Below are positions 2,303 through 35,370 of a DNA stretch of 37,460 nucleotides, piece after piece. Position numbers and translations under genes: made by a program. The stretch's first letter is position 1; every line of letters begins with the position of its first letter. The notes beneath the pieces were generated by a model. It saw only the letters and a list, made by a program, of their open reading frames with translations. It had not been told where the DNA came from and searched no databases. The stretch spans positions 1 to 37,460 of the forward strand of contig JAENZX010000035.1 in NCBI GenBank assembly GCA_016841045.1, given 5' to 3'. Source of the stretch: Thermincola carboxydiphila (lineage in GTDB: Bacteria > Bacillota > Thermincolia > Thermincolales > UBA2595).

Positions 2303-2418
2303 TAACGTTAACCTCCTTAATAATAATTTCCTGTCTCCATTTCTCCCAAAACCTGTCTTTCTTTATTTATCGGTGCTAAGAGAAACGCAACAAAAACAAT
2401 GCAATACTTATTAGGTTC

Positions 2419-12311: not shown

Positions 12312-12450
12312 GTCGCATCCCTCCGATGGCAGCGGCAACAATATACATATTATGTAATTCGGTATTTTTTTACCAGTTCCTGCATTTTAAGCCAAGAAAT
12401 TATTCCGACCTGGCGTAGAACACTCGTTTGCACAACAACCTGTAAATATT

Positions 12451-12459
12451 CATAAAATA
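12451..12459 (+). promoter_or_regulatory. Possible mother-cell sigma (SigK-like) -10 element for the LysM gene
   Basis: CATAAAATA fits the CATA-N3-TA pattern of SigK-type -10 elements, with a CAC-containing segment about 15 bases upstream. It lies 62 bases before the LysM gene. The alternative vegetative reading, TTGCAC with a suboptimal spacer, is also possible. The case is weak and rests on a short match. Confidence 0.25.
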
Positions 12460-12520
12460 TATAAATAGCCTCACCCACCTTGTTTAATTTTTTAATACTA
12501 AAAGAAAGAAGGTTTAGTAC

Positions 12521-18378: not shown

Positions 18379-18786
18379 TTAATTTATCTGATTTATGTTC
18401 CGCTGTTTGTGGCAATCATTACAAAAGCCAGTCTTAACAGACTCTCTGGTTTGTCCATGGCAATCTAAACAGAATTTGCCCAGTTCATTTTCTTTGATAA
18501 TACCTTCAGCTACCTCCCCGTGCTCACCCATCCACTTTTCTTTTGACTTATGCTGTGAGTTGATGTTATGACACTTTTGGCAGAAGTTTTCGTTTGTTTC
18601 TCCCCGCTTATCTTTATGGCACTCAATACAGAACCGATCCGGATTTCCCCTGCGGTTAACTATATCAGCGTGCTTTGCCATCCACTCAGTCTTATCTCCA
18701 TGCTGCGTCCTGTTCATGGAAAAATATATTACCAGCACAAGAGCCACTAATAAAAGTACGGTGATGATGTTCTTCCTGTTTAACAC
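18379..18786 (-). CDS. Membrane-anchored tetrahaem c-type cytochrome
   Basis: A small protein of about 135 residues. An N-terminal transmembrane helix (about 6-24) is followed by four CxxCH haem sites: CIECH, CQKCH, CLDCH and CNDCH. The exported part consists of two similar halves of about 50 residues. Each half has a W-M-x-x-H segment, then two haem motifs spaced 16 residues apart, so it looks like a duplicated dihaem module. The histidine in W-M-x-x-H could be a distal haem ligand. The start is ambiguous between TTG at 18795, GTG at 18792 and GTG at 18786. AAGGGG at 18796-18801 best fits 18786. It probably passes electrons between the quinone pool and outer cytochromes, by analogy with NapC/NirT-like proteins, though sequence kinship is not shown. 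Confidence 0.85.
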   Translation of the reverse strand: MLNRKNIITVLLLVALVLVIYFSMNRTQHGDKTEWMAKHADIVNRRGNPDRFCIECHKDKRGETNENFCQKCHNINSQHKSKEKWMGEHGEVAEGIIKENELGKFCLDCHGQTRESVKTGFCNDCHKQRNINQIN

Positions 18787-18824
18787 ATCCACCAACCCCT
18801 TGGTAATTTTTGGGTATCATTAAT

Positions 18825-20117
18825 TTATTTTGACTCCTTAAATGCATTATAAGCGGCTTCAACCGTTCGGTCAATATCTTCTTCAGAATGAGATAGTGAA
18901 ACAAAAGCTGCCTCAAACTGTGAAGGAGCAAGATATATTCCCTGATCCAGCATTGACCTGAAAAACTTTCCAAATCTCTCCGTATCTGAAGTTAAAGCAC
19001 TGGCATAATCAACTACCGGTTTTGCTGTGAAGAACGTACATACCATAGAACCAACCCTATTTGATGACACTTCAACTCCTGCACGTTCAGCTGCTTCAGC
19101 CATGCCTTGCGCCAACCTGGCTGACTTTTTATCAAGTTCTTCATATACACCAGGCTTCTGCAGTTCCTTTAGAGTTGCAATACCCGCAGTCATAGCCAGT
19201 GGATTCCCTGATAAAGTTCCTGCCTGATAAATTGGTCCCGCAGGAGCTATTTTCTCCATTATTTCTTTTTTTCCACCGTAGGCTCCTACCGGAAGACCTC
19301 CACCGATAATCTTTCCCAGGCAGGTAATATCAGGTTCTATATTAAAGCGAACCTGCGCTCCACCGTAAGCCACCCGAAAACCTGTCATTACTTCATCACA
19401 TATAAACAGAGTTCCATATTTACGGGTTAATTCGCGCAGTCCTTCCAAAAATCCTGGTGCCGGTGGCACTACTCCCATATTACCTGCAACTGGCTCTATA
19501 ATAACTGCAGCTATATCGTTTCCTTCAAGCTCAAAAATTTTATTTAGGGTGTCAAGATCATTGTAAGGCGCTGTTATGGTGCTACCGGCTATATTCTCCG
19601 GAACGCCTGGACTTGTAGGTACTCCTAAAGTTAAAGCACCTGAACCTGCCTTAATCAATAGTGCATCTGCATGACCGTGATAATTACCCTCAAATTTAAC
19701 AATCTTGTTCCGGCCCGTATATCCCCGTGCAAGCCTCAAAGCACTCATGGTAGCTTCAGTGCCGGAGTTAACAAAACGTACCATCTCCATTGCAGTAAAC
19801 GCATCTATTATCATTTTTGCCATTACAGTTTCAAGCTCAGTAGGCGCTCCATAACTTGTCCCCTTATCCAGATAAGCCTTCAAGGCTCCAACAACTGTTG
19901 GGTATTGGTGTCCAAGTATCATAGGTCCCCAGGAACCCACATAATCTATGTACTCATTACCATCAACATCATAAATTTTAGAACCGCTGGCTCTATCTAT
20001 AAATACAGGGGTATGTCCAACAGACCTGAAAGCTCTTACGGGGCTGTTTACCCCACCGGGAATATTTTGTTTTGCTTCTTCAAATAGTTCTACTGACTTT
20101 TGATAACCTTTATGCAT
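18825..20117 (-). CDS. hemL: Glutamate-1-semialdehyde 2,1-aminomutase
   Basis: A 430-residue class III PLP aminotransferase-fold enzyme that converts glutamate-1-semialdehyde to 5-aminolevulinate. The PLP lysine is K269 in [33 protein letters not shown] (118-133) binds the cofactor phosphate, and [10 protein letters not shown] (240-249) supplies the pyridine-binding Asp. [10 protein letters not shown] at 21-30 is a HemL signature. The length is normal. The ATG at 20117 has AGGGATGGTG upstream; the TTG at 20138 is rejected. It follows the nirJ2-like gene after a hairpin and about 170 bases, so it may be transcribed partly on its own. Confidence 0.95.
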
Positions 20118-20216
20118 TATTACACCATCCCTCTTCAATTAATTTGGTTCCACAGCAACAAACATCATTAGTGTTTCCGACACCTGACAAAATTACAACA
20201 GGGGCACGTTTTGCTA

Positions 20217-20262
20217 AAACACACGCCAGGCCCATTGACAAGGACTCTGGCGTGTGTGTTTA
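20217..20262 (-). terminator. Hairpin between nirJ2-like gene and hemL
   Basis: CTGGCGTGTGT (20248-20258) pairs perfectly with ACACACGCCAG (20220-20230) around a 17-base loop, and the flanking A/T bases extend the stem. On the minus strand it is followed by TTTTAGC, a short T tail. It lies 26 bases after the nirJ2-like stop and could be an attenuating or partial terminator before hemL. The rest of 20139-20287 holds no gene. Confidence 0.6.
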
Positions 20263-20287
20263 AGTGCTGTAATTCACTGGAGTCTGT

Positions 20288-21283
20288 CTAAAAACCTTTC
20301 CTACCTTGATACAGGCACCATGGTTCTTCGGCCATATAATCACCTTCGTTATAAAACGCTGCCCTGGCTCTACAGCCGCCGCATAGTTTCTTGAAACCGC
20401 ATGAACCGCATCCACCTTTATATTCCATGGTTCTAAGGTTTTTAAATACTTCACTGTCAGCCCATATTTCGCTAAACGGTGTTTCCCTTACGTTTCCTAC
20501 TTCCATATCCATATAGGCACAGGGCTGAACTTTTCCTTTAGGACCAATGATACAGTATGAAGTCCCTGCCAGGCATCCTCGTCCAAATCTTAAGTTCATA
20601 CCCATCTGCTTGGCTATCCTCATAAACTGGGGTGCACAAGTGGGTTTAAGCTCAATATCAACTTCCTGCTGCTTTTTCATAATCCTTGTCAAGATATCCT
20701 CATATTGTTCAGCTCTAAGAGATTCTTCCTCGATGTTTTTAGCTCTTCCGGTAGGAACAAGGAAGAAGAAATGGTGAGCTTTGGCCCCAAGTTCAATGGC
20801 AAAGTCGGTGATAGCTTCAGCCTCGTTCCAGTTCCAGTCCATCAGAGTGGTGTGAATCTGGAAGGGGACTCCGGCCTCACGGCAATTTTTCATACCCTGA
20901 ACAGCACCTTCCCAAGCTCCTTCCAACTGCCTTAGCTTATCGTGCTTTTCTTTATCCAGACTGTCTAAACTAATTCCTACACCGTCCACCCCCAGGGCCT
21001 TAAGCCTTTGAGCAACCTCAGGGGTAATAAAGGTACCATTGGTGCCGAAAACAGTAATCAGTCCCAGCTTCTTTGAATGCTCCACAAGCTCAAAAATATC
21101 CGGCCTCATAAACGGTTCCCCGCCGCTGAAAATCATAATCTTAAAACCGGCTTTTTTAATTTCGTCCAAAAGTGCTTTACCTTCTTCAGTATTTAATTCC
21201 TCATTGGCTTTTGCCCCAGCATCCCGATAGCAGTGGTCACAATACATGTTGCATTGGTTTGTTGTGTTCCAAGATACAATCAT
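20288..21283 (-). CDS. nirJ2: Radical SAM/SPASM protein, NirJ2-like, of haem biosynthesis
   Basis: A 331-residue enzyme. The radical SAM cluster motif is C11-x3-C15-x2-C18 (TTNQCNMYCDHCYR). FSGGEP and GISLDSLD are the SAM-binding blocks. The C-terminal SPASM domain has about seven more cysteines, among them GRGCLAGTSYC, QPCAYMD and GGCGSCGFKKLCGGC. The sequence and its place between hemB and hemL match the proteins named NirJ2 in heliobacteria and Desulfotomaculum-type bacteria. There it is thought to act in a sirohaem-based route to haem, or on a related tetrapyrrole. The exact reaction is not settled. The ATG at 21283 overlaps the hemB stop as TAATG, with GGGAGGG upstream, so translation is coupled; the ATG at 21304 is rejected. 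Confidence 0.85.
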   Translation of the reverse strand: MIVSWNTTNQCNMYCDHCYRDAGAKANEELNTEEGKALLDEIKKAGFKIMIFSGGEPFMRPDIFELVEHSKKLGLITVFGTNGTFITPEVAQRLKALGVDGVGISLDSLDKEKHDKLRQLEGAWEGAVQGMKNCREAGVPFQIHTTLMDWNWNEAEAITDFAIELGAKAHHFFFLVPTGRAKNIEEESLRAEQYEDILTRIMKKQQEVDIELKPTCAPQFMRIAKQMGMNLRFGRGCLAGTSYCIIGPKGKVQPCAYMDMEVGNVRETPFSEIWADSEVFKNLRTMEYKGGCGSCGFKKLCGGCRARAAFYNEGDYMAEEPWCLYQGRKGF

Positions 21284-22266
21284 TACTGTCCCTCCCTTAA
21301 CCATTTGGCCATATCTTTGGCATGGTAAGTTATTATAATATCTGCACCGGCACGTTTGATACCGGTCAGGGCTTCCATTACAACTCTCTTTTCATCCAGC
21401 CATCCGTTAATTGCCGCAGCCTTAAGCATGGAATATTCCCCACTAACATTGTAAGCTGCAACCGGCATCTGGAATTCATCTTTAATTCGTCTGATTATAT
21501 CAAGGTAAGGAAGTGCCGGCTTGACCATTACTATATCTGCCCCTTCCTCAACATCCAGCCATACTTCCTTTAAAGCCTCATCACTATTTGCCGGATCCAT
21601 CTGATAACCCCGGCGGTCACCAAACTGGGGAGTTGATTCAGCAACATCCCGGAAGGGGCCATAAAAGCCTGATGCATATTTGGCTGAATATGCCATAATG
21701 GGGATATTGCTGTAACCGTTAGCGTCAAGAGCTTCCCTGATGGCACCCACTCTACCGTCCATCATATCTGAAGGTGCAACCATGTCTGCTCCTGCTTTAG
21801 CATAGGATAAGCCAATTTTCGCCAGAACACTTAATGTTTCATCATTAAGGACATTTCCTTTTTCATCAAGGATACCGCAATGCCCATGACTGGTGTACTC
21901 ACACATACAGAGATCAGGAATAACCAGCAAGTCAGGATACTTTTCTTTTATAGCCTTAATAGCCCTTTGAACTGCTTCATTCTCATCAAAGGCAGAAGAA
22001 CCTTTTTCATCTTTGTAAGCAGGTATCCCAAAGAGCAGTACCGCCGGAATTCCTAAGTTTACAATTTCATCACATTCCCTTAGGATGACATCTACGGACA
22101 TCTGAGAAACCCCTGGCATGGAAGCAATCGGATTGTTAACTCCCTCCCCGTTTGTAACAAATAATGGGTACACCAGGTCGTCAACTGTTACTTGGTTTTC
22201 CCTAACTAACCGGCGCATCGTTTCAGAGCTTCTTAGCCGTCTCGCCCTAACAATCGGAAAACCCAT
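21283..22266 (-). CDS. hemB: Delta-aminolevulinic acid dehydratase (porphobilinogen synthase)
   Basis: A 327-residue enzyme that condenses two 5-aminolevulinates into porphobilinogen. The active-site lysines are K196 ([17 protein letters not shown]) and K249 ([11 protein letters not shown]). The cysteines C120, C122 and C130 in [14 protein letters not shown] mark the zinc-dependent type. GGAGGTG precedes the ATG. The gene is transcribed after cobA-hemD, and its stop overlaps the start of nirJ2 by one base. Confidence 0.97.
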
Positions 22267-22299
22267 TTTCTACACCTCCACCAAAAAATTAAAACTCTT

Positions 22300-23817
22300 T
22301 TATTTTCCGTAATACCTAAGAATAGCCTCAACAAGCCCGTCTATAGTGTATTGTGAAGCCTCAATATCAACTTTGAGACCTAATTCCCTGGCTGTCGCAG
22401 AAGTTATCGGACCTATACAGGCAACAACAGCGTTATTTAACAATTCCTCTGATTTGCTGTCACCAAGTTTGCGGATAAAGTTTTTGACGGTTGAGGAACT
22501 GGTAAATGTAAGGACGTGAATTTTTTTCTCTTCAAGCATTCTAACAAGTTCTTCAGTATTACCGGATCCTTCGATAGTGCGGTAGGCAGTCACTTCGTTA
22601 ACAATTGCACCCATTGCCTTTAGAGTATCAGGAAGTATTTTTCTTGCTATATCTGCTCTGGGCAGTAATACCTTCTTACCTTTAATCTCCTGGGTCTTGA
22701 AGATTTCAATTATTGCCTCGGCCACAAATTCATCTGGCATAAACTCACAGAAGATACCAAATTTTTCAATTTCATCTCTAGTTTTAGGTCCTATGGCGAC
22801 AATTTTTATATTACTTAACTTCCGGATATCTTTCTTAAGGTATCTCAGCCGGTTCATGAAAGACTGAACCCCGTTCACACTGGTCAATACCAACCAGTCA
22901 TAATCTTCAATTTCATCTAAAGCTCTATCTAAAAGATCAAAATCCTCCGGGTCGGCAATTTCTATAGTCGGGAACTCCCATGGTTCAGCGCCAAGTCCTT
23001 CAATCTTTTCCGCAAATACACTGGCTTGGCTTCTGGCCCTGGTAATTAAGATACGCTTACCAAACAGGGGTTTTTGTTCAAACCACTTTAACCTGTCCCT
23101 AAGAGTAACTACATCACCCACCACAATTATTGCCGGATGACCCATCTTGGCTTCTCTGGCTTTATCTGCAATATCGGCCAGAGTTCCTGTAACTGTCTGC
23201 TGTTCCGGTCTGGTCCCCCATCTAATGACCGCGACAGGAGTGTCGGCGGAACGCCCCTGGGCAATCAACTGCTCTGCGATATGAGGTAGATTGCTCATAC
23301 CCATGTAAAATACCATGGTTCCAATACCTGAAATCTTTTCCCACTCAATTGATGTATTTCCTTTTGCAGGGTCTTCATTTCCTGTAATAAAGGCTAAGGT
23401 AGAAGTGAAGTCTCGGTGGGTTACTGGAATACCGGCATAGGCGGGTACGGCAATACCGGAGGTGACTCCTGGAATTACTTCAAATGAAATCCCATGAGTT
23501 AAAAGATAGTCAGCCTCTTCTCCCCCTCTGCCAAAAACAAAAGGGTCGCCACCCTTCAGCCTGATAACACTTTTACCCTCACGGGCTTTTAAAACCAACA
23601 CTTCGTTGATTTCTTCCTGCTTTAGAGTATGCCTGACCGGAGACTTACCGGCAAAAATAAGTTCTGCCCCCGGTTTGGCATGAGATAATAACCTTGGGCT
23701 GGCTAATCTGTCATAGACAAGCACATCAGCCTTTTTAATATATTCTAAGGCTTTTACAGTAATTAGCCCGGGATCCCCCGGACCTGCCCCAACTAAATAT
23801 ACCTTTCCATTCTGCAT
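22300..23817 (-). CDS. cobA-hemD: Fused uroporphyrinogen-III methyltransferase and uroporphyrinogen-III synthase
   Basis: A 505-residue bifunctional protein. Residues about 1-245 are the SAM-dependent methyltransferase that makes precorrin-2: VYLVGAGPGDPGLITVKAL, VIRLKGGDPFVFGRGGEE, GVTSGIAVPAYAGIPVTHR. Residues about 250-505 are the synthase that closes hydroxymethylbilane: KRILITRARSQASVF, WLVLTSVNGVQSF, LTFTSSSTVKNF. The fusion channels the linear tetrapyrrole into uroporphyrinogen III and on to precorrin-2, the entry point for sirohaem and cobalamin. The start codon lies two bases after the hemC stop. AGGAG within the hemC 3' end is its likely ribosome binding site. Confidence 0.96.
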   Translation of the reverse strand: MQNGKVYLVGAGPGDPGLITVKALEYIKKADVLVYDRLASPRLLSHAKPGAELIFAGKSPVRHTLKQEEINEVLVLKAREGKSVIRLKGGDPFVFGRGGEEADYLLTHGISFEVIPGVTSGIAVPAYAGIPVTHRDFTSTLAFITGNEDPAKGNTSIEWEKISGIGTMVFYMGMSNLPHIAEQLIAQGRSADTPVAVIRWGTRPEQQTVTGTLADIADKAREAKMGHPAIIVVGDVVTLRDRLKWFEQKPLFGKRILITRARSQASVFAEKIEGLGAEPWEFPTIEIADPEDFDLLDRALDEIEDYDWLVLTSVNGVQSFMNRLRYLKKDIRKLSNIKIVAIGPKTRDEIEKFGIFCEFMPDEFVAEAIIEIFKTQEIKGKKVLLPRADIARKILPDTLKAMGAIVNEVTAYRTIEGSGNTEELVRMLEEKKIHVLTFTSSSTVKNFIRKLGDSKSEELLNNAVVACIGPITSATARELGLKVDIEASQYTIDGLVEAILRYYGK

Positions 23818-23819
23818 TT

Positions 23820-24752
23820 CTATATTGACTCCTGTCTGACTGATTCAAGAATACGGTCTGCTCCCATTTCTACCAGCTGCCCGGCCAATTTCTCTCCCAA
23901 GGTGGCAGCATCATTGACAGATCCGGTAATTTCGCTGCGTAAGAGTTCTTTTCCATCGAGACTTGCCACCACACCCTTTAAAGTGAGCTTGTCTCCTTCT
24001 ACATTCCCAAGAGCCCCAATTGGAATCTGGCATCCACCCTCCAGTCTCCTTAAAAGAGCTCTTTCTGCAAGAATAGCTTTTTCTGATGGAAAATGGTTAA
24101 GTTTTTGGATTACCTCGTAAACCTCAGTATCGCCTTCCCTTATTTCTATGCCTATTGAACCCTGTCCAACTGCCGGTAAGCTAACATCGGTGGAAAGCCG
24201 CTCTGTAATCCTGTCGGCCCAGCCAAGGCGTTCAACACCGGCTGCTGCAAGAATAATTGCATCCATATTCTCTCTTTCCAGTTTGGCCATCCTGGTATTA
24301 AGATTGCCCCTCAAGGGCTCCAACTGCAGGTCGGGTCTATAACTTAGCAATTGAGCACACCTTCTGAGACTGCTGGTTCCAATTCTGGCCCCCTGAGGCA
24401 TATCTGCAAGGTTAACCCCGTTCCTAGAAATTACCACATCTCTGGGGTCAACACGTTCACAAATACAACCAATGGTCAGGCCTTCCGGAAGAACAGTAGG
24501 CAGGTCCTTCATACTGTGAACTGCCAGATCGATCTCACCGGCCTGCATAGCCACTTCAAGTTCTTTGGTGAACAACCCTTTGTCGCCTATTTTGGCCAAA
24601 GCAACATCAAGAATTTTATCTCCCTGGGTTTTCATACTTACAATCCTGAAAGAGTAATCAGGATTCAGCTTTTTCAAATTTTCCATTACCCATTCTGTCT
24701 GCCACATCGCCAGGGCACTGTCCCTGCTCCCAATTACGATTTCCCTTGCCAT
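23820..24752 (-). CDS. hemC: Porphobilinogen deaminase (hydroxymethylbilane synthase)
   Basis: A 310-residue enzyme of normal length that links four porphobilinogens. C241 in RRLEGGCQIPIGALG carries the dipyrromethane cofactor, and D83 in HSMKDLPT is the catalytic aspartate. GTSSLRRCAQL and LRGNLNTRMAKL are the conserved arginine blocks for substrate carboxylates. GGAGG precedes the ATG. It lies 34 bases after hemA. Confidence 0.97.
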   Translation of the reverse strand: MAREIVIGSRDSALAMWQTEWVMENLKKLNPDYSFRIVSMKTQGDKILDVALAKIGDKGLFTKELEVAMQAGEIDLAVHSMKDLPTVLPEGLTIGCICERVDPRDVVISRNGVNLADMPQGARIGTSSLRRCAQLLSYRPDLQLEPLRGNLNTRMAKLERENMDAIILAAAGVERLGWADRITERLSTDVSLPAVGQGSIGIEIREGDTEVYEVIQKLNHFPSEKAILAERALLRRLEGGCQIPIGALGNVEGDKLTLKGVVASLDGKELLRSEITGSVNDAATLGEKLAGQLVEMGADRILESVRQESI

Positions 24753-24786
24753 AACAATACCTCCAACTCAAGACGTCAGCCTTGTT

Positions 24787-26163
24787 TTATTCGTTACCTA
24801 CAACCTGATGACGGTGCGGCATCTCACCAGGATGGCCTTGTTCATCGGAACCGGCGTGGCCTGCACCATGCCCTGCACCCATAGCAGGGTGCTCTCCGGA
24901 AATCTCCAGGTTAAAAAGGTTTTGCAGAATTTCAGTGTATAAATGTCCCTGTTTGGTAAGGGCATATGCTTTTAACTGCATGACCGGGTCATGTAGCAGT
25001 TGGTTAACAATTGAATTAGTCATGGAACTGATAATTTTTTTCTCGCGCTCCGTAATATTACCTAACCTGTTATAAGCCCTGTTCATTTCCTTCTGCCTTA
25101 TTTCCTCACCGCGCTTTTTCAGGGCAGCCACAGTCGGGGTTACAAACTGTGTACTTAACCATTTCCAAAACTCAGAGATTTCTTTTTCAATAATCTTTTC
25201 AGCCTTAACGGCCTCCTTCTTCCGGTGAGCAAGGTTTTGGTCTACGACATTATTCAGATCATCAATATCATACAACTCTACGCCTTCGACTTCCCTGACA
25301 GATGGTTCCACATCTCTGGGAACTGCAATATCTATAACAAAGATTTTTTTGCCGCCTCTGCGTTCCATAACTCTTTGCATATCGGCTTTACCTATTACAT
25401 AGTGGGTTGCCGAGGTTGCGCTTATAACTATATCTGTATCTGTCATATGGTCAAATAACTCATTAAAATAAACTGCCTCACCGCCAAACTGCGCAGCCAA
25501 ATCAGAAGCCTTTTCGTAGGATCGGTTCGAAACCAAAACATTTATAACTCCGTTGGATATAAGATGTTTAGCCGTTAGCTGGCTCATCTTTCCTGCACCG
25601 ACAACCAGTATGGAACGGCCCTCCAGACCATTAAAAACCTGCTTGGCAAGTTCAACAGCAGCATAACTTATAGATACGGCGTTCCTGTCAATATGGGTTT
25701 CGGTACGCACCTTTTTACCTACTGCAATAGCCTGCTGGAAAAGTGTATTCAAAACTCTGTTGGTAGAGTTGTTTTCACATGCATGCTGATAAGCTGTTTT
25801 AACCTGGCCCAGAATCTGGGTTTCTCCCAGTACCATTGAGTCGAGGCCTGAAGCCACTCTGAAAAGATGTGTTATAACATCGTATAGTGTATAAGTGTAT
25901 AAGTAGTTCATTATTTCACTTAGCTCAGCACGACAACACTTAGCAAGATGTTCGCGGATTTTGGACAGCCCTTTATCAACATCCAAAACAGCGGCATATA
26001 TTTCTGTCCTGTTACATGTAGACAGAACTACACATCCGCGTAATATTTTGTTGGAAGTAAGCTTTTCCAGGTGCTTCGGCAGGTCTGTTTCAGAAAAACT
26101 TAATTTTTCCCTGACCTCTACCGGAGCTGTCTTATGATTGAGTCCAACCACTACCAAGTACAT
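24787..26163 (-). CDS. hemA: Glutamyl-tRNA reductase with a His/Gly-rich C-terminal tail
   Basis: A 458-residue NADPH-dependent enzyme that reduces glutamyl-tRNA to glutamate-1-semialdehyde. [15 protein letters not shown] (7-21) and the catalytic C50 in [11 protein letters not shown] are diagnostic. [14 protein letters not shown] and [15 protein letters not shown] (NADPH domain) follow, with the dimerisation helices near 320-420. The body ends around LEISGE. An unusual tail of about 35 residues follows, rich in Gly with six His ([22 protein letters not shown]). This tail is not part of the family fold and could bind metal or haem. AAAGGAG lies ten bases before the ATG. The gene overlaps sirC by 32 bases. 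Confidence 0.95.
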
Positions 26164-26779
26164 GGTTTATCCGCTCCTTTACTTTTTCGTGTTGTCCTTC
26201 TCTCAATAAATCAATAATATCAGAGTAAACTAAACAATGAAATATCTCTCTGCGTTTTCCCTGTTCAGGAATGTTACTTATAATATGTTGTCTTATATCT
26301 CCCATAAGTTCTAAAAACTCACGGTATTCCTCCCCAAAGAAGGACTCTAAATCTTCTCTTATCCGGCGTGCCAGCATCGGACTTCTTCCATCGGTAGAAA
26401 TACTGATAGACAACGGCCCTTGTCTTACGACCGCTGGTACAATAAAATTGCATCTATTCGGCTCATCAACGATATTTACAAGAATATTTCTTGTACTGCA
26501 TTCCTCAGCAACCAAACCGTTGACTTCGCAGCTATCGGTTGCTCCTATAACCAAAAATGCATTTTCCAAATCTGATATCTTAAAGTTTCTCCTGACAGCG
26601 GTAATCTCTCCACGGGCAGAGGCTTCCTCAAGCCCTGGGGTGAGTTCGGGGCTTATAACGAAAACTGAGGCACCGCAGTCAAGTAAGCTTTTGACTTTTC
26701 TTTCAGCTACTTTCCCGCCGCCAACTACAACACACTTCCTACCCGGTAACTTCAGATACACCGGATAATATTCACTCAT
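26132..26779 (-). CDS. sirC: Precorrin-2 dehydrogenase, possibly also sirohydrochlorin ferrochelatase
   Basis: A 215-residue protein like the N-terminal half of CysG. The NAD-binding motif is [18 protein letters not shown] (about 15-32), with [10 protein letters not shown] and [17 protein letters not shown] further on. [20 protein letters not shown] is typical of the Met8/SirC dimer domain. It oxidises precorrin-2, the product of the neighbouring CobA domain, to sirohydrochlorin. Whether it also inserts iron cannot be read from the sequence. The ATG at 26779 is used; the ORF's TTG at 26782 is one codon earlier. It is the first gene after the promoter at 26823-26851, so the tetrapyrrole genes form their own unit. 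Confidence 0.9.
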
Positions 26780-26822
26780 CAACTTTCACTTCCCCAAAAG
26801 GGCTTCATGGACCCGTATTCTA

Positions 26823-26976: not shown

Positions 26977-27822
26977 CTAGCTTCCGTAGGCATGAATACC
27001 TGACAGGAGATAATTAACTCCAAAGAATGTAAAGAGGACGAAAACAAACCCAAGAATTGACATCCACGCAGCTTTAGTTCCTCTCCATCCATAGGTAAAT
27101 CTGGCGTGAAGATAAGCGGCATAAACAAGCCAGGTGATTAAGGACCATGTTTCTTTGGGGTCCCAGCTCCAATAACGGCCCCAGGCATATTCTGCCCAGA
27201 TAGCACCAGTAACAATGACTGCTGAGAGCAGAGGGAACCCAACAGCTATAAATTTATAACTGATATCATCAAGCACGTCGAGTGAAGGCAATCTTCTGTT
27301 AAGTTCACTTCTGGAATTATTGTTCTCCATGTTCTTTTTGATAAGATACATTATACTGGTTCCCAGGGCGAGAGCAAAGGCTGCATAAGAAATTATAGCC
27401 GTAGCCACATGTATGTGAAGCCAGTTACTTTGCAGAGCAGGCATCAGGTTCTCAGCATTTCTTCTCTCCGGCGGCATGGCAACAACGATGTACGACAATA
27501 CCAGCCAGGCTACAGGCATTACAAAACCACCTATAATCCTCATTTTATAAATACGTTCTGCCAGTAGATAGATTAAAGCTATACCCCAGGCAAAACTGAC
27601 CAGGTATTCGTAACCGTTTACAAAAGGAGGATGTCCGGATTGAACCCATCTAGCACCAAGTGTAACCGTATTTACAATAAAACCTATTAGTGTTGCAAGT
27701 GTCCCTAGCTTGGCTAAATTTTCATTCTTATAGCCGAGATAAATTATATATACAGCTGATGCAATGAAATAAGCGAAATATGTTGCCTGAAACGTAAAAT
27801 TCTCCAAAGCCAATAAATCCAT
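26977..27822 (-). CDS. ccsA: Cytochrome c biogenesis protein CcsA/ResC (haem handling)
   Basis: A 281-residue integral membrane protein with about eight hydrophobic helices. The haem-handling tryptophan-rich segment is WAEYAWGRYWSWDPKETW (about 216-233). The conserved histidines lie in SNWLHIHVATAI and in YAAYLHARFTYGWRG. With ResB it makes the System II cytochrome c synthase, which moves haem across the membrane and attaches it to CxxCH motifs of exported apocytochromes. It starts 12 bases after resB, with GGGGGG upstream. Its clients are probably the 4-haem and 11-haem cytochromes in this window. Confidence 0.93.
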   Translation of the reverse strand: MDLLALENFTFQATYFAYFIASAVYIIYLGYKNENLAKLGTLATLIGFIVNTVTLGARWVQSGHPPFVNGYEYLVSFAWGIALIYLLAERIYKMRIIGGFVMPVAWLVLSYIVVAMPPERRNAENLMPALQSNWLHIHVATAIISYAAFALALGTSIMYLIKKNMENNNSRSELNRRLPSLDVLDDISYKFIAVGFPLLSAVIVTGAIWAEYAWGRYWSWDPKETWSLITWLVYAAYLHARFTYGWRGTKAAWMSILGFVFVLFTFFGVNYLLSGIHAYGS

Positions 27823-27834
27823 TGATTGTCCCCC

Positions 27835-29166
27835 CTATCCCTTTAGTTCGGCGCTTAGTACTTCTATATCACTGTCCAGACCGCGTTTATCCTTAGTGCT
27901 TTGACCACCAATCAAGACCAGAGATCCGTCTTTTTCCGGAGTAATAACAGCCCATATTCTTCGCTGTCTTAAAATGAATGAAATTACCATAGCTACCATA
28001 AGAAGAATTGAAGCAAAACCTACAATCGGTACTCCAGGATCCTTTTTAACCGAAAGTACTGTATATGCATCCACCCTGTCAAAGATTATCTCAGCCTGTT
28101 CGTATTTATATGGGGTCTTCACATCAACTTCTTCCTGATTTACCCCCTGCTGTCCTTTGTAAGTAATCACAGTGATTTTATTGGTGGCTTCATTAAATTG
28201 TACAGGCATAAATGATATATCTCCACTGGTTACATATTCCTCAGGCGCCATGGTAAACTGCTGATTGGTATTACCCTCTGTTCCATACCTCCCTGCAAAC
28301 TGGTAGCCGTAAGAAGACTGATAAAATTTGATCCCCTTGTGAACCAACGGATTATTTACGTATATGCTGTAATTGTAGTTCTGGTTGCCATCTATAACTG
28401 TAACATCACTATACCACTGTTTAACACTTCTACCGTCAGGCCTAAACTCAGTCCTAAAATCGTTTATTCTCAATTCAAAGTTGTCTTCGGGAGCAATCTT
28501 TCCTTCTACACCACTAAGCTGGTTTAGATTATAGGTCCCGCCTTCCAACCCTGCTAAAGTACCTTCAAAACCTACGAGACCGCTAAATTTAATCATAATG
28601 GCAATAAGCATAATTAAAAAGCCCAGGTGTGTAAGATATGGTCCGAGTATTCCCAGGTGTCCTTTGTCAGAAGCTATCCTGACACTATCACCTTCTGAAT
28701 TCTCAAATACCCTGTAGCCTCTTTTTTTAAGCATTAATTTAACTGATTCAGCCGCTTGTGCCGGACTGGATTTCAGCTTGATGCTGGCAGAAGATTTGAG
28801 GCTCTTGACGAAATTCTGTGAAACATCAGATTTCGGACCTCTCAGCGTACTAGTAATAGATTTCCACCGGTTAAGGCTGCATACTAAAAGGTTTAAGCTC
28901 AAAAGACCCATCAACAATTTAAAAGGTAGAGAATTGTAAAAACTCACAAAGTCTTCCCGTCCAAACTGATCCTTGGGTATAAATATTGTACCCCAAATAG
29001 ATGCGATGGCCATTATCAAAAGTAAAACTATCCCCAATTTCATGGAACTAAGGAAGTTCCATACCACATCAATGATGTTACTTTCACCGGAAGAATTCTG
29101 AGGTTCATCGGGTGACGTTTGGAGATCTTTCGAGTTAATGTCATTCCTTTTATTGTCTTTCGCCAT
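27835..29166 (-). CDS. resB: Cytochrome c biogenesis protein ResB
   Basis: A 443-residue System II partner of CcsA. A hydrophilic N-terminal tail of about 40 residues precedes two helices (about 44-62 and 82-98). A third helix lies near 175-195, then a large exported beta-rich domain, with a last helix near 375-395. SMKLGIVLLLIMAIASIWGT and the pattern of four helices with a long outer loop are typical of ResB. The ATG is preceded by AAAGGAGG. The 3' end lies 12 bases before ccsA. The region upstream contains paired tandem repeats. Confidence 0.92.
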   Translation of the reverse strand: MAKDNKRNDINSKDLQTSPDEPQNSSGESNIIDVVWNFLSSMKLGIVLLLIMAIASIWGTIFIPKDQFGREDFVSFYNSLPFKLLMGLLSLNLLVCSLNRWKSITSTLRGPKSDVSQNFVKSLKSSASIKLKSSPAQAAESVKLMLKKRGYRVFENSEGDSVRIASDKGHLGILGPYLTHLGFLIMLIAIMIKFSGLVGFEGTLAGLEGGTYNLNQLSGVEGKIAPEDNFELRINDFRTEFRPDGRSVKQWYSDVTVIDGNQNYNYSIYVNNPLVHKGIKFYQSSYGYQFAGRYGTEGNTNQQFTMAPEEYVTSGDISFMPVQFNEATNKITVITYKGQQGVNQEEVDVKTPYKYEQAEIIFDRVDAYTVLSVKKDPGVPIVGFASILLMVAMVISFILRQRRIWAVITPEKDGSLVLIGGQSTKDKRGLDSDIEVLSAELKG

Positions 29167-29512: not shown

Positions 29513-32500
29513 TCACTTCACAGGAGCATGAGCGGATCCGTGGCAGCTTAGACAAGCGGCTGTACCAGTGTGTTCGGGGACAACTGCCGGAGGAGGTGCC
29601 ATGGTAATACCTTCTACTACCTTGCCTGTCTGATGACAAGCCAGACACTCATTCCTGCCATCACCAAGGTTGGAGCCCAGGGAATCCTTAAGCATATATT
29701 TGTTATTGTTAGCTGATCCATGAAGACTGTGGCATGCTTCACAAGGCATTTTTGACCCCGGTATTAGATTCCCTCCGGAAGACTTTATATAGTGACCTCC
29801 CTGTGAACTGTTATACGGTGTCTGGATATCATATTTTGCATTAGCGCTGGTATTGTTATGGCACCCGAAACACAAAGCAAAATCAGAAGCAATATACTGA
29901 GTTTTACCATCGTTATATGACCCTCTGAGAGTTTTCATAGATACTTTGGAAGTCCCGTAAGCTGAACCATGAGGATCATGACAGTTTGCGCACTGCCCCT
30001 CCTGCCCGGTGCTGCCGGGATATGTTACATTGGTATTAGGGCTTGATACCAGCGCATGAGAATTGTACACCGACTCAGCAACTGTCTTCCCCGGGAACCT
30101 GTTATCAGGGCTAGCATTGGTATGACATTTGAGGCACAGTGTTTCGTTATTACCGGTAATTGGCGTATCTCCCCCAGTAATTGTATCTCTCAGTAGTTTT
30201 GGCTGAGATGACCCGTGCTCCTGATGGCATCCCATACAGCTTATATCAGTACCCGAATCAGGACTAAACGGAGTAGTCCCGTTTATTATATAGGAAGAAT
30301 CGTTATGACCAGTTCCATTTAAAGGGTATACGTTTGGATCCAGGGCTTTAAGATTACCCTGTATATCCTTGTGACAGCTGAAGCAGAACTCATTGCCGCC
30401 ATGTATATTCCGGTCGGCGCTGCTCTGCAGCAGCCGTGCCCAGTGAATGTCATTGCCGTTAATATCCTTTCCACCGTCGTGAGGATTATGACAGTCACTG
30501 CACTGCATGGTGCCTTCAGGGACTTTATGATGGGATACCGCATAAGGTGCCTCCAAACCAAACTGACCGGCAATGTCGTACTGGCTCTGTCCACCCGCAT
30601 CATGACATAAATAGCACATTTGGGTCTGGTCCTGTTGGTTAATCAGTCGTTCACCCGCCGCAGTATGAGTGGCATGGCACTGAGAGCACTTGTTAGTATC
30701 ACTCAGATACCTGCCGTGGGGATTTACACTCACAACTGAACTCCCGGTAAAGGATGCTGAATTATTAACAGTACCTATAATATTCCCGTACTGATCTTTT
30801 ACATTTGTTACTGTAACAATATAAACTTCTCCTCCTGTTTGTGTAGCTGTTGAGAGCTTAACCGTTACTCCGTCCTTCTGAAGTGTTGCCCCTGTAATAG
30901 GGAGTGCCGGTGAAACAGTATAATTTGTTGGATCTTGAGCTGTCACCGGGTCCATTGTTACACTAAATACAACATTCAACGAAATGTTATCAGTTGGAGC
31001 TGCGGATAAAACCTCAGGCGGAGATGTTACCGGAGGTGAAACTCCTGCGAAACCGGCCGTATTATTAACTCCTACAAGATTTCCCGCCCCATCTTTGACT
31101 CCGGTTACCGTTATGGTGTAAGCAGTTCCTCCTGTCTGGGGATCTGTAGTGATTCTCACTGTTGCAGCGTCAGGCTGAAGTACGACCTCCTTGATACCAA
31201 GGGCCGGACTTATACTGTAGTTTGCTGCTGTTTGGGCAGAAACAGAATCCACCCGCTCATTGAACAAGAGGTCAACTGTATTATAGTTTATTGCAACTGC
31301 CGAAACTACAGACGGAGCAGTCATGTCAATTCCCTCAAAGGTAACTGTATTATTTCCATTGATAGTATTTCCGGCCAGATCTTTGACACCGGTTACTTCC
31401 AAATAGTAGATGGAACCATGAGTTTGAACGGCAGTAGTCAGTCTTACCGTTTTACCGTCGCTTTGAAGCACAGCGTTTTGTACTGTTAAACCCGGGGTGA
31501 TGTTGTAACCGGTCAACGACTGGGATGTGACTGCGTCAACGGCTTCACTAAACAAAATATCAACAGTGCTGTCATTGACCGGTGTTGCTGACAACACTTT
31601 AGGAGCAGTATCGTCTGATCCCGAGAAATTTGCTGTATTGCTATCAGATATTATATTACCCGAAATATCCTTTACGTTATTTACAGTGGCTGTATAAGTG
31701 GTCTGCCATGTCTGAACTGTAGTGGTAAGACGTATCGTCTTGCCATCTGCCTGAAGGATAGCGCTGCTGATGCTCAATTCCGGGGAAACAGAGTAGTTGT
31801 TGAATGTTTCTGCCGAAGCCTGATCAACCTTTTCATTAAATACCAGGTCAACGGTAGTTTCATCTACCGAAACTGCAGAAACAACCCTTGGCGGCGTAGT
31901 ATCAACTCCGGTAAATTCTGCAGAACTTCCATCATTAATTATATTGCCGGATAAATCCTTAACATTTGATGCTGTCAAGGTATATACCGTTCCGAGTGTT
32001 TGAGTGGATGTGGTTACCTCTACCGTCTGACCGTCTGCTAAAAGCGTGGCTCCTACTACTGTAAGGGAAGGACTTATTGTGTAATTTGCATATGCTGCAG
32101 CAGTCACAGTATCAACCTGCTCGTTAAACTTTACACTGACCATATTATCCTTCATGGCAGTAGCAGAAGCTACAGCAGGAGGAGTAGTGTCAACTCCGGT
32201 AAAAGCCGCTGTACCGGCTGCCGTCATGGTATTTAAAGATACATCCTGGATATTGTTGACAGTAACAGTATAACTAGTCCCTTTCACCTGAGCATCAGTT
32301 ACCAGTTTTACAGTTTTGCCGTCAGCCTGTAGAACAGCATCTGTTATATTCAGTACAGGTGTGATTAAATAGTTGGCTGTGTTCTCAGCAGACAGCGGCT
32401 CTAACTGTTCGTCAAAAATTACATCAACAGACCTGTCCGTGGGCGCAATGGCCGATACTACCTGAGGAGGAGTGGAGTCATAAGTTATATTAACCCTAAC

Positions 32501-33115
32501 TTCATCAAACCAGGTAATTAGCTGTGCTGTGGGGTCGGCTCCGGTCTGGCCCTTCTGTACAAGCCTCAATTCATACTGAGTATTGTATTTAGTAATAGAA
32601 CTTAATGTTTTGGTAACAGGCGTAAAATCTATATTGGTTATTCCTGCATCCAGTGGGACTGACTCCAGAGGAGAATTCCCACCTACCTCCCATATTTGGG
32701 CTTCCACATTCCAGCTGCCCTCAGATGGTTGGGCATTAATGTACTGTTTTTTGTATGCCAGGTCCAGAGAAGCCGAAATGGGAACCTTAGTTGTTGCAAA
32801 ACGGTAATAAACGTAACTGTCTACTGAAACAGCAGAGCCTACGGCTGATGAAAGTTTCCCCGAACCGGTCCCCATGTAGTTAACAGTATTGTCAAGCTCC
32901 CATGTTCCGTTTCCTGAATTATTGTTTAAAGTCCAAGCCCCGATCTGAAGGGAAGTATCCATACTTCCATCACCGTTTAAAACATCTTCAGGCGCGCCAA
33001 AGGCAGTTCCAAGGAAGTGCCCGGCAACAAAAAGAGCCATAAGAACAGCGGAAATAACCACCAAAATCTTTTTCTTACGCCAGGACGTGTCTACTTTCCA
33101 ATTAAGGTTTATCAT
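29513..33115 (-). CDS. Exported 11-haem c-type cytochrome with six Ig-like repeats
   Basis: A 1,200-residue protein. An N-terminal hydrophobic signal/anchor (about 17-40) is followed by a beta-sandwich-like domain of about 170 residues. Next come six tandem repeats of about 96 residues (roughly 214-795). Each repeat begins with a Pro-Pro or Ala-Pro pair before VVSA and ends in a YT-x-TV-x-x-VKD-x-x-GN pattern, like bacterial Ig or SbsA-type domains. The last 400 residues carry 11 CxxCH motifs: CSQCH, CYLCH, CSDCH, CFSCH, CMGCH, CLKCH, CANCH, CFGCH, CEACH, CLACH and CLSCH. Several are followed by NPH, DPH, QEH or SLH, which can supply distal histidines. GGGAG upstream selects the ATG at 33115 over 33139. 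The Ig repeats likely form a stalk that lifts the haem domain through the wall; the electron partner is unknown. Confidence 0.9.
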   Translation of the reverse strand: MINLNWKVDTSWRKKKILVVISAVLMALFVAGHFLGTAFGAPEDVLNGDGSMDTSLQIGAWTLNNNSGNGTWELDNTVNYMGTGSGKLSSAVGSAVSVDSYVYYRFATTKVPISASLDLAYKKQYINAQPSEGSWNVEAQIWEVGGNSPLESVPLDAGITNIDFTPVTKTLSSITKYNTQYELRLVQKGQTGADPTAQLITWFDEVRVNITYDSTPPQVVSAIAPTDRSVDVIFDEQLEPLSAENTANYLITPVLNITDAVLQADGKTVKLVTDAQVKGTSYTVTVNNIQDVSLNTMTAAGTAAFTGVDTTPPAVASATAMKDNMVSVKFNEQVDTVTAAAYANYTISPSLTVVGATLLADGQTVEVTTSTQTLGTVYTLTASNVKDLSGNIINDGSSAEFTGVDTTPPRVVSAVSVDETTVDLVFNEKVDQASAETFNNYSVSPELSISSAILQADGKTIRLTTTVQTWQTTYTATVNNVKDISGNIISDSNTANFSGSDDTAPKVLSATPVNDSTVDILFSEAVDAVTSQSLTGYNITPGLTVQNAVLQSDGKTVRLTTAVQTHGSIYYLEVTGVKDLAGNTINGNNTVTFEGIDMTAPSVVSAVAINYNTVDLLFNERVDSVSAQTAANYSISPALGIKEVVLQPDAATVRITTDPQTGGTAYTITVTGVKDGAGNLVGVNNTAGFAGVSPPVTSPPEVLSAAPTDNISLNVVFSVTMDPVTAQDPTNYTVSPALPITGATLQKDGVTVKLSTATQTGGEVYIVTVTNVKDQYGNIIGTVNNSASFTGSSVVSVNPHGRYLSDTNKCSQCHATHTAAGERLINQQDQTQMCYLCHDAGGQSQYDIAGQFGLEAPYAVSHHKVPEGTMQCSDCHNPHDGGKDINGNDIHWARLLQSSADRNIHGGNEFCFSCHKDIQGNLKALDPNVYPLNGTGHNDSSYIINGTTPFSPDSGTDISCMGCHQEHGSSQPKLLRDTITGGDTPITGNNETLCLKCHTNASPDNRFPGKTVAESVYNSHALVSSPNTNVTYPGSTGQEGQCANCHDPHGSAYGTSKVSMKTLRGSYNDGKTQYIASDFALCFGCHNNTSANAKYDIQTPYNSSQGGHYIKSSGGNLIPGSKMPCEACHSLHGSANNNKYMLKDSLGSNLGDGRNECLACHQTGKVVEGITMAPPPAVVPEHTGTAACLSCHGSAHAPVK

Positions 33116-33146
33116 TTTATCATCTCCCGCACCAAACATGATGAGG

Positions 33147-34106
33147 CTACTTTGTAACGAAAAAGACCTTTACATTTCCCGCTCCCCGGTCAACTACAAA
33201 CAATTTACCTGTTTTATCAATAAACTGATTAGTAGGAAACACTAGCTGAATTTCCGGTCGTACAGCCTGAGGTGAAACCATCAACTGTTTCCCTTCCTGG
33301 TCAAATATCCTTACCTGATGAGCAATGGTATCTGTAATAAAGGCGCGTCCCCACTTGTCAAAGGTAATCCCCCGCACCATGGAAAAAGAGGTTTCCGGCT
33401 GTCCGCCACCCGTTATTGTTTTTATAACACGGCCTTTTTTATCGAATACCTTGAGTGAGTAGTTACCACTGTCTGCAACCCATAACCTCCCTTTCTTATC
33501 AAAGGCAGTGGCCTGGGGGTAACTTAAAGGGTGCTGTGGGTCAGATATTGTTCTGATTCGTTTCCCTTGTTCATTAAAGACTACAATTCTATGGTTTAAT
33601 AAGTCTGAAACGTATAATAGACCGTCCGGACCCATGGTCAAAAAACCTGGTTTAAGGTCACTGGAAGGCTCAACAACAGTACGAAGATATTTCCCTGTAG
33701 GATTGAAAACTTTGATATCATTGTTAATTGAATCCGAAACCACTAAATTCCCCTCGCTGGAAATTACTATCCCATTAGGGAAACCAAAGGAATCTTTACC
33801 TTTACCGGGCTTGCCAAAAGAAAACAGTTTTTTACCTGTATTTGAATAAACAAGTATCCTGGCTGTCCCTCCGTCAGTCACGTAAACCCGGCCACGGGCA
33901 TCTACTGTTACAGTGTTAGGTCTCACCGGTCCGGTGGCATCCCCCAACGAGTATAGATAAGAAGGAAATTGCTTCTCCGTTATCAGGTTGTAATCTGTAG
34001 GAGTTGATCCCGCCAAACCCGGCCAGAGAAAAATACTCCCGTAAATAATTAAACCGGTTAGCACACATAGCGACCCAATAGTTGCTATTAATCTTGTCAA
34101 CCGCAT
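33147..34106 (-). CDS. Membrane-anchored NHL-repeat beta-propeller protein
   Basis: A 319-residue protein. An N-terminal transmembrane segment (about 5-24) is followed by about six NHL repeats. The units resemble VDARGRVYVTDGGTARILVY, SEGNLVVSDSINNDIKVF, PDGLLYVSDLLNHRIVVF, KKGRLWVADSGNYSLKVF and KWGRAFITDTIAHQVRIF. Such propellers bind partners or ligands outside the cell and often accompany multihaem cytochromes. GGAG lies upstream of the ATG at 34106; the earlier ATG at 34142 lacks a ribosome binding site. It ends 31 bases before the 11-haem cytochrome, so the two are co-transcribed. Confidence 0.88.
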   Translation of the reverse strand: MRLTRLIATIGSLCVLTGLIIYGSIFLWPGLAGSTPTDYNLITEKQFPSYLYSLGDATGPVRPNTVTVDARGRVYVTDGGTARILVYSNTGKKLFSFGKPGKGKDSFGFPNGIVISSEGNLVVSDSINNDIKVFNPTGKYLRTVVEPSSDLKPGFLTMGPDGLLYVSDLLNHRIVVFNEQGKRIRTISDPQHPLSYPQATAFDKKGRLWVADSGNYSLKVFDKKGRVIKTITGGGQPETSFSMVRGITFDKWGRAFITDTIAHQVRIFDQEGKQLMVSPQAVRPEIQLVFPTNQFIDKTGKLFVVDRGAGNVKVFFVTK

Positions 34107-34448
34107 TTTTATCAACTCCAATCCAATTAGAGCACTAAACAATGTAGTAGTTTAATTCATCTATTCTGATTTCTAGAAACTATTATTATTGTCCTTCTGA
34201 TTTAACCAAACTTATATCCGGTAATTTAGGGCACCAAAGCAAGAACTTTCCGTATTACATCCTCCCCAGGGGTAACCCCCCAGCCCTGTTCCGGTGCGTA
34301 CCTTTGAACCATCCAGGTAATATTAATTCTGTCTTTAAAAGATTAAACCGCAGGTGAATTGATTCATTTACGGCAAAAGAGAGAGGACGCAAAGTACGCA
34401 GAGAGTCAGAGGTATCCCAACATATGGTCTCTTCTTCTTTTTTCTTCT
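34107..34448. other. Intergenic region between the TPR and NHL genes with possible structured RNA
   Basis: No gene is seen in these 342 bases. The GC-rich stretch 34225-34320 contains GGGGTAACCCC (34269-34279) and distant complementary segments GCACC (about 34231) and GGTGC (about 34293). It could therefore fold into a multi-stem RNA on either strand. At 34373-34413 there is a purine-rich run with repeated ACGCA units. On the minus strand, TTGGTT with an 18-base spacer and TAATAG (near 34177-34206) is a possible promoter for the NHL gene. I do not recognise a known riboswitch class. Confidence 0.45.
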
Positions 34449-35087
34449 TTAACTGTTGCCGGTAAGGCGGATTACTGCTTCTCTGGCCTGTTTGAAATCT
34501 GGTACATAGAGCAGAGCTGTTCTATATTGTTTTAGAGCCTCCTCCTTTTTACCCTGGGCTTCGTAAACCATGCCCAGCTCTATCATAATGTCAGCTGAAC
34601 CTGGTGAAACTTCCAGGGCAAGATCATACTGCTCTTTGGCTTTGGCAAACTGCTTTGATTCGCGATAAACTTGTGCCAGCAAGTAGGCTGCACCCTCATA
34701 ACGGGGGTTTTGCCCTAATACAATTTTCATCTGTCTTTCAGCTTTTTTATAATCACCCGATTCTTTAGCCATCAGACCGATTTGAAACATGGCATCCAGA
34801 TTGCCTTTGTCCAACTTTAAAACCTTACTGTATTCTGATAGAGCTTTATCTGTCTTACCCCGCAGGTGATATATCTTCCCAAGGTTTAGATGAGCTTTAA
34901 CATCCCTGGGATTTACCCGCAGAAGGTGCTCGTAGGCCTCCTGGTCCTTTACAATTTGCGGCTTTTTTGCCTGCGATACTAAATAATATTTATAACCCGC
35001 TGCAACACAGGATGTAATCAAAACGACCGTAAAGACGGCAATTAGCGTCAAAGCCGTGCTGCGGCTAACAATCCGACCGTTCTCCAT
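34449..35087 (-). CDS. Membrane-anchored tetratricopeptide repeat protein
   Basis: A 212-residue protein. A transmembrane helix at about 8-30 is followed by four or five TPR units of 34 residues, starting near AYEHLLRVNPRDVKAHLNLG and including AMFQIGLMAKESGDYKKAER and IMIELGMVYEAQGKKEEALK. TPR arrays scaffold protein assembly. The orientation places the repeats outside the membrane, next to the exported NHL and cytochrome proteins. GGGTGAAGG lies just before the ATG. It is the first gene after the CRP/FNR-type palindrome at 35169-35184. Confidence 0.9.
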   Translation of the reverse strand: MENGRIVSRSTALTLIAVFTVVLITSCVAAGYKYYLVSQAKKPQIVKDQEAYEHLLRVNPRDVKAHLNLGKIYHLRGKTDKALSEYSKVLKLDKGNLDAMFQIGLMAKESGDYKKAERQMKIVLGQNPRYEGAAYLLAQVYRESKQFAKAKEQYDLALEVSPGSADIMIELGMVYEAQGKKEEALKQYRTALLYVPDFKQAREAVIRLTGNS

Positions 35088-35225: not shown

Positions 35226-35260
35226 AAAAAAAAACCGCGGTGGGAGTATCACCGCAGTTT
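35226..35260 (-). terminator. Terminator after the leucine-rich-repeat gene
   Basis: CTGCGGTG and CACCGCGG (35250-35257 and 35235-35242) form a stem with one mismatch, extended by A/T pairs, followed on the minus strand by nine T residues. It ends the LRR transcript about 110 bases after its stop. Confidence 0.85.
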
Positions 35261-35370
35261 CGTGCAATCGTAATTATCCAAATTTAAATATATTATAACC
35301 CAGGCATTGATCCCAATAATAAGACGGAAAGTCTGGCTGCGTCCACCGTCAGCATCACCATAGTTGACCG

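Follow-up and report, generated by a model that had tools for sequence, protein, structure and literature searches.

A TPR, NHL and 11-haem cytochrome locus of Thermincola carboxydiphila and its relation to a recurrent Bacillota cassette

On balance, we lean towards the view that a minus-strand locus of Thermincola carboxydiphila is a derived copy of a Bacillota cassette that places OmcS/CwcA-like multihaem cytochromes outside the membrane, its TPR and NHL proteins serving as cognate assembly or docking factors. The cytochrome would be exported via Sec and receive its haems outside the membrane from the neighbouring ResB-CcsB synthase. Its Ig-like stalk would hold or space the 11-haem head inside the wall or past it, the head would pass electrons along bis-histidine haems, and the TPR and NHL proteins would stay tethered at the outer membrane face. 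The recurrence of the TPR-NHL-cytochrome cassette points to dedicated helpers for electron conduits through the wall.

Layout of the locus and its cytochrome

The locus lies in a 37,460-nucleotide stretch of DNA, here called the window, and runs on the minus strand throughout, from TPR, NHL propeller and 11-haem cytochrome to resB-ccsB and the haem-synthesis genes:

35231..35261, minus strand: terminator-like hairpin (12-bp stem) with T tract, between an LRR gene and the TPR gene
34449..35087, minus strand: TPR protein of 212 aa with a TPR array and an N-terminal hydrophobic anchor; the module's first gene (Pfam TPR_2, E=2e-24)
33147..34106, minus strand: NHL beta-propeller protein, 319 aa, N-terminal hydrophobic anchor (Pfam NHL, E=3.3e-29)
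29513..33139, minus strand: 11-haem cytochrome, 1208 aa, apparently secreted (paired_CXXCH, E=7.5e-26)
32498..32995, minus strand: cytochrome N-terminal domain, residues about 49-214, following the signal peptide
30725..32497, minus strand: cytochrome Ig-like stalk (residues about 215-805), six Big_5 stretches (PF13205, E=9.8e-33)
29516..30757, minus strand: cytochrome 11-haem head; haems 1-6 align to OmcS-like hexahaem cytochromes and are extended by haems 7-11
27835..29166, minus strand: ResB, System II cytochrome c synthase (PF05140, E=4.6e-65)
26977..27822, minus strand: CcsB/CcsA, System II cytochrome c synthase (TIGR03144, 302.7 bits, over the cut-off)
18825..26782, minus strand: tetrapyrrole genes SirC, HemA, HemC, CobA-HemD, HemB, NirJ2-type radical SAM and HemL (NCBIfam)
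18379..18795, minus strand: small membrane-tethered 4-CxxCH protein (PF14522, E=8.7e-7)

Every gene of the original prediction lies at its stated position, and the matches to PF05140 and TIGR03144 identify ResB and CcsA/CcsB as a System II (Ccs) synthase pair. The hairpin at 35231-35261 is likely the upstream border of the module, although the total of such matches in the hairpin scan is at chance level. About 300 bp separate TPR from NHL, 7 bp the NHL stop from the cytochrome gene, and 346 bp the cytochrome from ResB. The TTG start at 34142 in the ORF list of the NHL gene is probably wrong, since the ATG at 34106, preceded by GGAG, agrees with the N-termini of the orthologs.

The trio had been described as exported or anchored. 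As judged by inspection, the TPR and NHL proteins carry N-terminal anchors, whereas the cytochrome has a signal-peptide-like N-terminus with no C-terminal wall anchor seen, and thus looks secreted. It contains exactly 11 CxxCH motifs, which account for all of its cysteines (22/22). The Ig repeats are genuine: the six Big_5 stretches emerged when the stalk was scanned alone, having been missed by the whole-protein domain scan. The N-terminal domain gave no NCBIfam match. Orthologs are present in five genomes (G001, G004, G005, G007 and G008) with 57-66% identity in the head; haem numbers in relatives differ widely (11, 25 and 26), and one relative is without the stalk. In the alignment, the conserved non-motif histidines of the head are numerous enough, and so ordered, that all 11 haems could have bis-His ligation. 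AlphaFold models of the head built from 6 and 51 sequences reached pLDDT values of 31 and 45, which made a PDB fold search meaningless. We also considered whether haems 7-10 duplicate haems 3-6. The motif spacing fits, but with the haem motifs masked the similarity (30) equals that of shuffles (mean 31.3), and so no duplication is claimed.

With regard to the small 4-CxxCH protein, it had been proposed to feed the cytochrome from quinones, a role that its domain content does not bear out. The domain scan returned Cytochrome_C7, paired_CXXCH and weaker families only, with no match to NapC_NirT; shorter orthologs occur in relatives, five of them sharing a contig with the orthologous locus, and their open frames span only some 85-104 aa. 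By these sequence features the protein is not NapC/NrfH-like.

Recurrence and pairing of the cassette genes

Dozens of loci show the order TPR-NHL-multihaem cytochrome, within the family, within the order and in other Bacillota families. Across 12 genomes, TPR precedes a same-strand NHL gene in 52 of 68 TPR matches, and 49 of the 50 TPR homologues matched across the anchor precede an NHL gene; of 72 NHL homologues whose following gene could be read, 71 have a multihaem cytochrome gene after them on the same strand, at a median distance of 30 bp. All these counts are inflated by near-copies among genomes. The genome of the window itself holds nine NHL-cytochrome units. Moreover, NHL subtype follows cytochrome class, with 8 changes compared to a shuffled mean of 26.8 (0/200 shuffles as low). 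The idea that TPR and NHL are cytochrome partners is thus strengthened, as is the Gram-positive extracellular electron-transfer setting in which it was framed. The genome-wide amplification of the cassette had escaped the original prediction.

A weakly matching NHL of Magnetococcales also precedes a cytochrome gene, in that case with 5 haems.

The same pairing bears on what the partners do. Both NHL and TPR are generic domains, and sequence alone does not fix their role. It is conceivable, though rather unlikely, that NHL (and TPR) remain in the finished conduit as structural parts, the propeller capping the cytochrome or bolting it to the membrane side, close to the membrane cytochromes that supply its electrons, and not leaving after assembly. 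Each cytochrome class is tightly paired with its NHL and two-step cassettes hold one NHL per cytochrome, both in keeping with a stoichiometric docking part, and TPR-NHL often has a 12- to 17-haem gene on its upstream side and the cytochrome gene on its downstream side. However, CxxCH is absent from both proteins, and the NHL-cytochrome pairing would fit a chaperone equally well.

The window keeps TPR, NHL and multihaem cytochrome in cassette order on one strand, but it departs from the usual cassette in that the first cytochrome after TPR-NHL is an 11-haem giant and not a six- or seven-haem protein. The orthologous loci of G001, G004, G007 and G008 read NHL-cytochrome-ResB-CcsB-haem genes, with no TPR adjoining NHL, and that of G005 reads TPR-NHL-6haem-NHL-25haem. 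NHL orthologs share 51-56% identity. The order SirC-HemA-HemC-CobA/HemD-HemB is common to G001, G007 and G008; G004 has it likewise, except that HemA was not called by the ORF picker. NHL-11-haem-ResB-CcsB also occurs in another family (G009; CcsB 60% identity). The original prediction had staked itself on conservation of the trio in relatives. Since the four closest orthologous loci lack a TPR gene next to NHL, the exact TPR-NHL-11-haem order is unsupported, whereas the TPR-NHL-cytochrome cassette is recurrent; as a fixed trio, the locus is half-refuted on that criterion.

It is possible, without being the likelier case, that the working unit here is only NHL-cytochrome-ResB-CcsB, and that TPR is either a remnant of a larger ancestral cassette or part of another unit. 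Besides the four loci just mentioned, the TPR-NHL gap of about 300 bp speaks for this, as does the rarity of giant-class NHLs directly behind TPR (1/12). Given the gene order of G005, a first NHL (NHL-a) and a 6-haem gene may have been lost in the window. On the other hand, the TPR gene has an intact frame and shares 55% identity with the cassette TPR of G005 (L037_5), a search of the TPR-NHL gap revealed no remnants of lost NHL or 6-haem genes, and the hairpin scan gave no clear terminator there.

Relation to OmcS and to described systems

The usual cytochrome behind TPR-NHL is a six-haem protein related to OmcS of Geobacter sulfurreducens, a relation that the original prediction had missed. 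The profile of these six-haem partners has OmcS (6ef8) as its top PDB match at E=1.8e-20, followed by a next match at 5.8e-6; it should be underlined that this value concerns the hexahaem paralogs and not the window cytochrome. The hexahaem family was carried by 27 of 398 sampled genomes. In the window head, haems 1-5 and the distal histidines 808, 825, 871, 887, 945 and 975 are in register with 38 hexahaem proteins, and in a profile-profile comparison the first six haems of the giants matched the hexahaem profile at E=1.2e-31. Against the PDB, the profile of the 11-haem head orthologs (A2) gave no match, and another head-only profile (A5) placed 6r2q (3.4e-10) ahead of OmcS (1e-5). Because the head-only profiles do not single out OmcS, the six-haem core is less certain in the head than in the hexahaem partners. 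By the alignment and the profile-profile comparison, the window head resembles an OmcS-like six-haem unit that has been extended to 11 haems and set on an Ig stalk, its 11 CxxCH motifs and large Big_5 stalk setting it apart from the hexahaem filament type.

OscD, a product of the osc (OmcS companion) operon of Geobacter sulfurreducens, is reportedly beta-propeller-like. That operon encodes OscH for folding, OscE/F/G for secretion and OscD as a morphology factor (PMC13194489), but it serves an outer-membrane bacterium. In Thermincola, CwcA (Tfer_0075 / TherJR_1122) is an OmcS-like hexahaem wall cytochrome for which a model based on OmcS proposes a polymer embedded in the wall (PMC7911101). Proteins of this kind are the commonest cytochromes behind TPR-NHL, whereas the window cytochrome combines 11 haems with an Ig stalk of six domains. 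OmhA of Carboxydothermus ferrireducens, most abundant in ferrihydrite-grown cells, is by description likewise a Gram-positive surface cytochrome with 11 haems, but the text of that paper makes no mention of NHL, TPR or Ig-like parts (PMC7829351).

A close precedent is Dethiobacter alkaliphilus, in which multihaem cytochrome clusters with NHL- and TPR-repeat proteins have been described, with proposed roles for these proteins in complex assembly, secretion and orientation; cytochromes from such clusters were raised in ferrihydrite or thiosulfate reduction (PMC10376724). Together with CwcA (PMC7911101), these clusters run counter to the earlier impression that the combination was not a described one. 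The relevant passages present the clusters one by one and not as a repeated gene-order unit, and they mention neither a relation to OmcS nor cognate pairing nor an Ig stalk (PMC10376724). The response to thiosulfate (PMC10376724) would also suit a secreted protein that serves a soluble or metal acceptor as terminal reductase or electron store, in place of a wire across the wall. We consider this quite unlikely for the window cytochrome: its apparent secretion with no anchor seen, and the variable haem number and occasional loss of the stalk among relatives, agree with such a role, but the head appears related to filament-forming OmcS-like proteins and the stalk suggests reach.

Meaning for wall-crossing electron transfer

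Returning to the reading as a derived cassette copy, a broader form of it, which we put forward tentatively and regard as somewhat unlikely, is that TPR-NHL pairs constitute a general cytochrome-specific assembly apparatus for Gram-positive wall-spanning OmcS/CwcA-like wires, with one matched NHL per wire type; the window would then hold a unit recast for a single-chain, Ig-stalked and lengthened version. The findings bear on how electrons cross a thick wall and on how wire-forming cytochromes are built where there is no outer membrane. A small conserved cassette, with nine NHL-cytochrome units in a single genome and with matched propeller-cytochrome pairs, opens this question to tests by gene removal, and the cassette offers a simple genomic marker for electron conduits in Bacillota.

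Gene content of the locus

The original prediction placed TPR, NHL, cytochrome, resB-ccs and tetrapyrrole genes in this order, and they are present as stated, all on the minus strand:

34449-35087 (-), TPR protein, N-terminal hydrophobic anchor by inspection
33147-34106 (-), NHL protein, N-terminal hydrophobic anchor by inspection
29513-33139 (-), multihaem cytochrome, 1208 aa
27835-29166 (-), ResB
26977-27822 (-), CcsB
downstream of CcsB, in order (-), SirC, HemA, HemC, CobA-HemD, HemB, NirJ2-type radical SAM protein, HemL
18379-18795 (-), small 4-CxxCH protein, after HemL

For NHL the ATG start was preferred over the listed TTG because of an upstream GGAG and agreement with ortholog N-termini. 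The cytochrome carries the predicted 11 CxxCH motifs, which take up all 22 of its cysteines, and its Ig-repeat stalk is confirmed as six Big_5 stretches (E=9.8e-33). The three proteins had been regarded as exported or anchored, which fits the anchors of TPR and NHL; in the cytochrome, inspection by eye points to a signal peptide that can be cleaved off and reveals no anchor to the wall.

The cytochrome gene adjoins genes for haem synthesis and for attaching haem by System II, which is consistent with a haem-hungry exported protein. The NirJ2-type protein (20288-21304, minus strand; TIGR04055 above cut-off) lies amid SirC, HemA, HemC, HemD, HemB and HemL, suggesting a siroheme-dependent haem route. 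A NapC-like identity of the 4-CxxCH protein was rejected on domain search, and its proposed role as quinone-side feeder is therefore unsupported here. Shorter orthologs occur in seven relatives (open frames of approximately 85-104 aa), five of them on the same contig as the orthologous haem/cytochrome locus.

The window is the entire contig C41 of the 4.16-Mb assembly. It also encodes a BspA-type leucine-rich repeat protein that includes an Ig-like domain and extends to the end of the contig (35371-37458, minus), CooS-like carbon monoxide dehydrogenase and CooC-like ATPase genes recognised from translations (284-3195, minus), and an ORF with a LysM-like start (12521-13078, plus) overlapped by a probably spurious minus-strand ORF (12350-12784).

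A recurring TPR-NHL-cytochrome cassette

TPR and NHL homologues were searched for separately. In 12 genomes, 52 of 68 TPR matches lay within 2 kb upstream of a same-strand NHL match, as did 49 of the 50 whose alignment takes in the anchor (beginning no later than query residue 22, as tallied from the match table). Of 72 NHL homologues whose following gene could be seen, 71 preceded a same-strand multihaem cytochrome, at a median distance of 30 bp. Selection of loci L055-L094 relied mostly on TPR-NHL co-occurrence, so TPR presence is selected there and cytochrome presence is not. The gene after NHL mostly encodes a six-haem protein, at times a seven-haem or giant one, and a 12- to 17-haem gene is frequently found upstream of the cassette. 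The genome of the window itself has nine NHL-cytochrome units, eight with TPR in front (for unit L040_8, the TPR falls across two of the retrieved loci).

Other arrangements were also observed. In a Gram-negative Magnetococcales locus (L052:9779-11888, plus), an NHL gene that lacks an accompanying TPR is followed immediately by a 5-haem cytochrome gene. An FtsA/PilM-like 701-aa protein is encoded in the window (15138-17243, minus), and its 42% homologue in the distant relative G047 (L050:6014-8194) directly precedes an NHL-4-haem pair. Giant multihaem proteins include those of L042 (G059; 42 haems, 2792 aa), L051 (G013; 49 haems, 1780 aa) and L044 (own genome, contig C36; 16 haems, 2331 aa).

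When downstream cytochrome class is mapped onto a tree built from 67 NHL proteins, it switches 8 times, compared with a shuffled mean of 26.8 (none of 200 shufflings as low). NHLs of the seven-haem class form a single clade, and the window NHL clusters with giant-associated NHLs. Near-copies favour such clustering; several deep clades are nonetheless concordant. That NHL class tracks cytochrome class is the pattern expected of cognate helpers or docking parts.

Six-haem partners and the relation to OmcS

A profile of ten six-haem partners matched Geobacter OmcS (6ef8) at E=1.8e-20, the next PDB match being 5.8e-6. By description these partners resemble Thermincola CwcA, a hexahaem protein whose model is based on OmcS and for which polymerisation within the wall has been proposed (PMC7911101). 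The hexahaem family is present in 27 of 398 Bacillota genomes sampled irrespective of NHL. Twenty loci were read outside the family of the window, and in 14 of them a TPR-NHL pair immediately precedes either the matching cytochrome or the cytochrome before that. Of the remaining six, three are 10- to 12-haem loci from a single genus, one has NHL on the opposite strand, another lies on a short contig, and in L142 the cytochromes come before TPR-NHL.

In an alignment with 38 hexahaem proteins, the window head is in register at haems 1-5 and six distal His (808, 825, 871, 887, 945 and 975), and at none of these positions does more than one of the 38 deviate. For eleven giants, the segment with the first six haems matched the hexahaem profile at E=1.2e-31. 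The window head has enough conserved non-motif His residues to give each of its 11 haems bis-His ligation. Head-only profiles against PDB did not single out OmcS, and structure models of the head failed, which was counted against the relation. The first half of the head is likely, though not certainly, OmcS-related.

Proposed origin of the locus and proposed roles

Within the window's family, four relatives keep the order NHL-cytochrome-ResB-CcsB-SirC-...-HemB (G001, G004, G007 and G008), with cytochromes approximately 50-60% identical over aligned parts. TPR is absent beside NHL in all four of these orthologous loci. G009, of another family in the same order, has NHL-11-haem-ResB-CcsB (CcsB 60%), also without TPR. 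G005 has TPR (55% identical)-NHL-6-haem-NHL-25-haem cytochrome, the last matching the window protein across stalk and head with its first 1308 residues, and the 26-haem protein of G001 matches the head at 60% and is without a stalk. A G005-like cassette may have given rise to the window locus and to the others through loss of genes and haem domains; no remnants of lost genes were found in the TPR-NHL gap of the window.

The components of the cassette are already known. As far as we searched, there is no published description of the repeated cassette, the NHL-cytochrome pairing or the Ig-stalked lengthened version. In Geobacter, the osc operon provides folding, secretion and morphology factors serving OmcS (PMC13194489). 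In a Dethiobacter study, the only one among the papers searched to bring NHL, TPR and multihaem proteins together, cytochromes from clusters also bearing NHL/TPR genes go up during ferrihydrite or thiosulfate reduction, and an assembly or docking role is proposed for the NHL/TPR proteins (PMC10376724). TPR and NHL of the window would likewise act as assembly or docking factors for the cytochrome.
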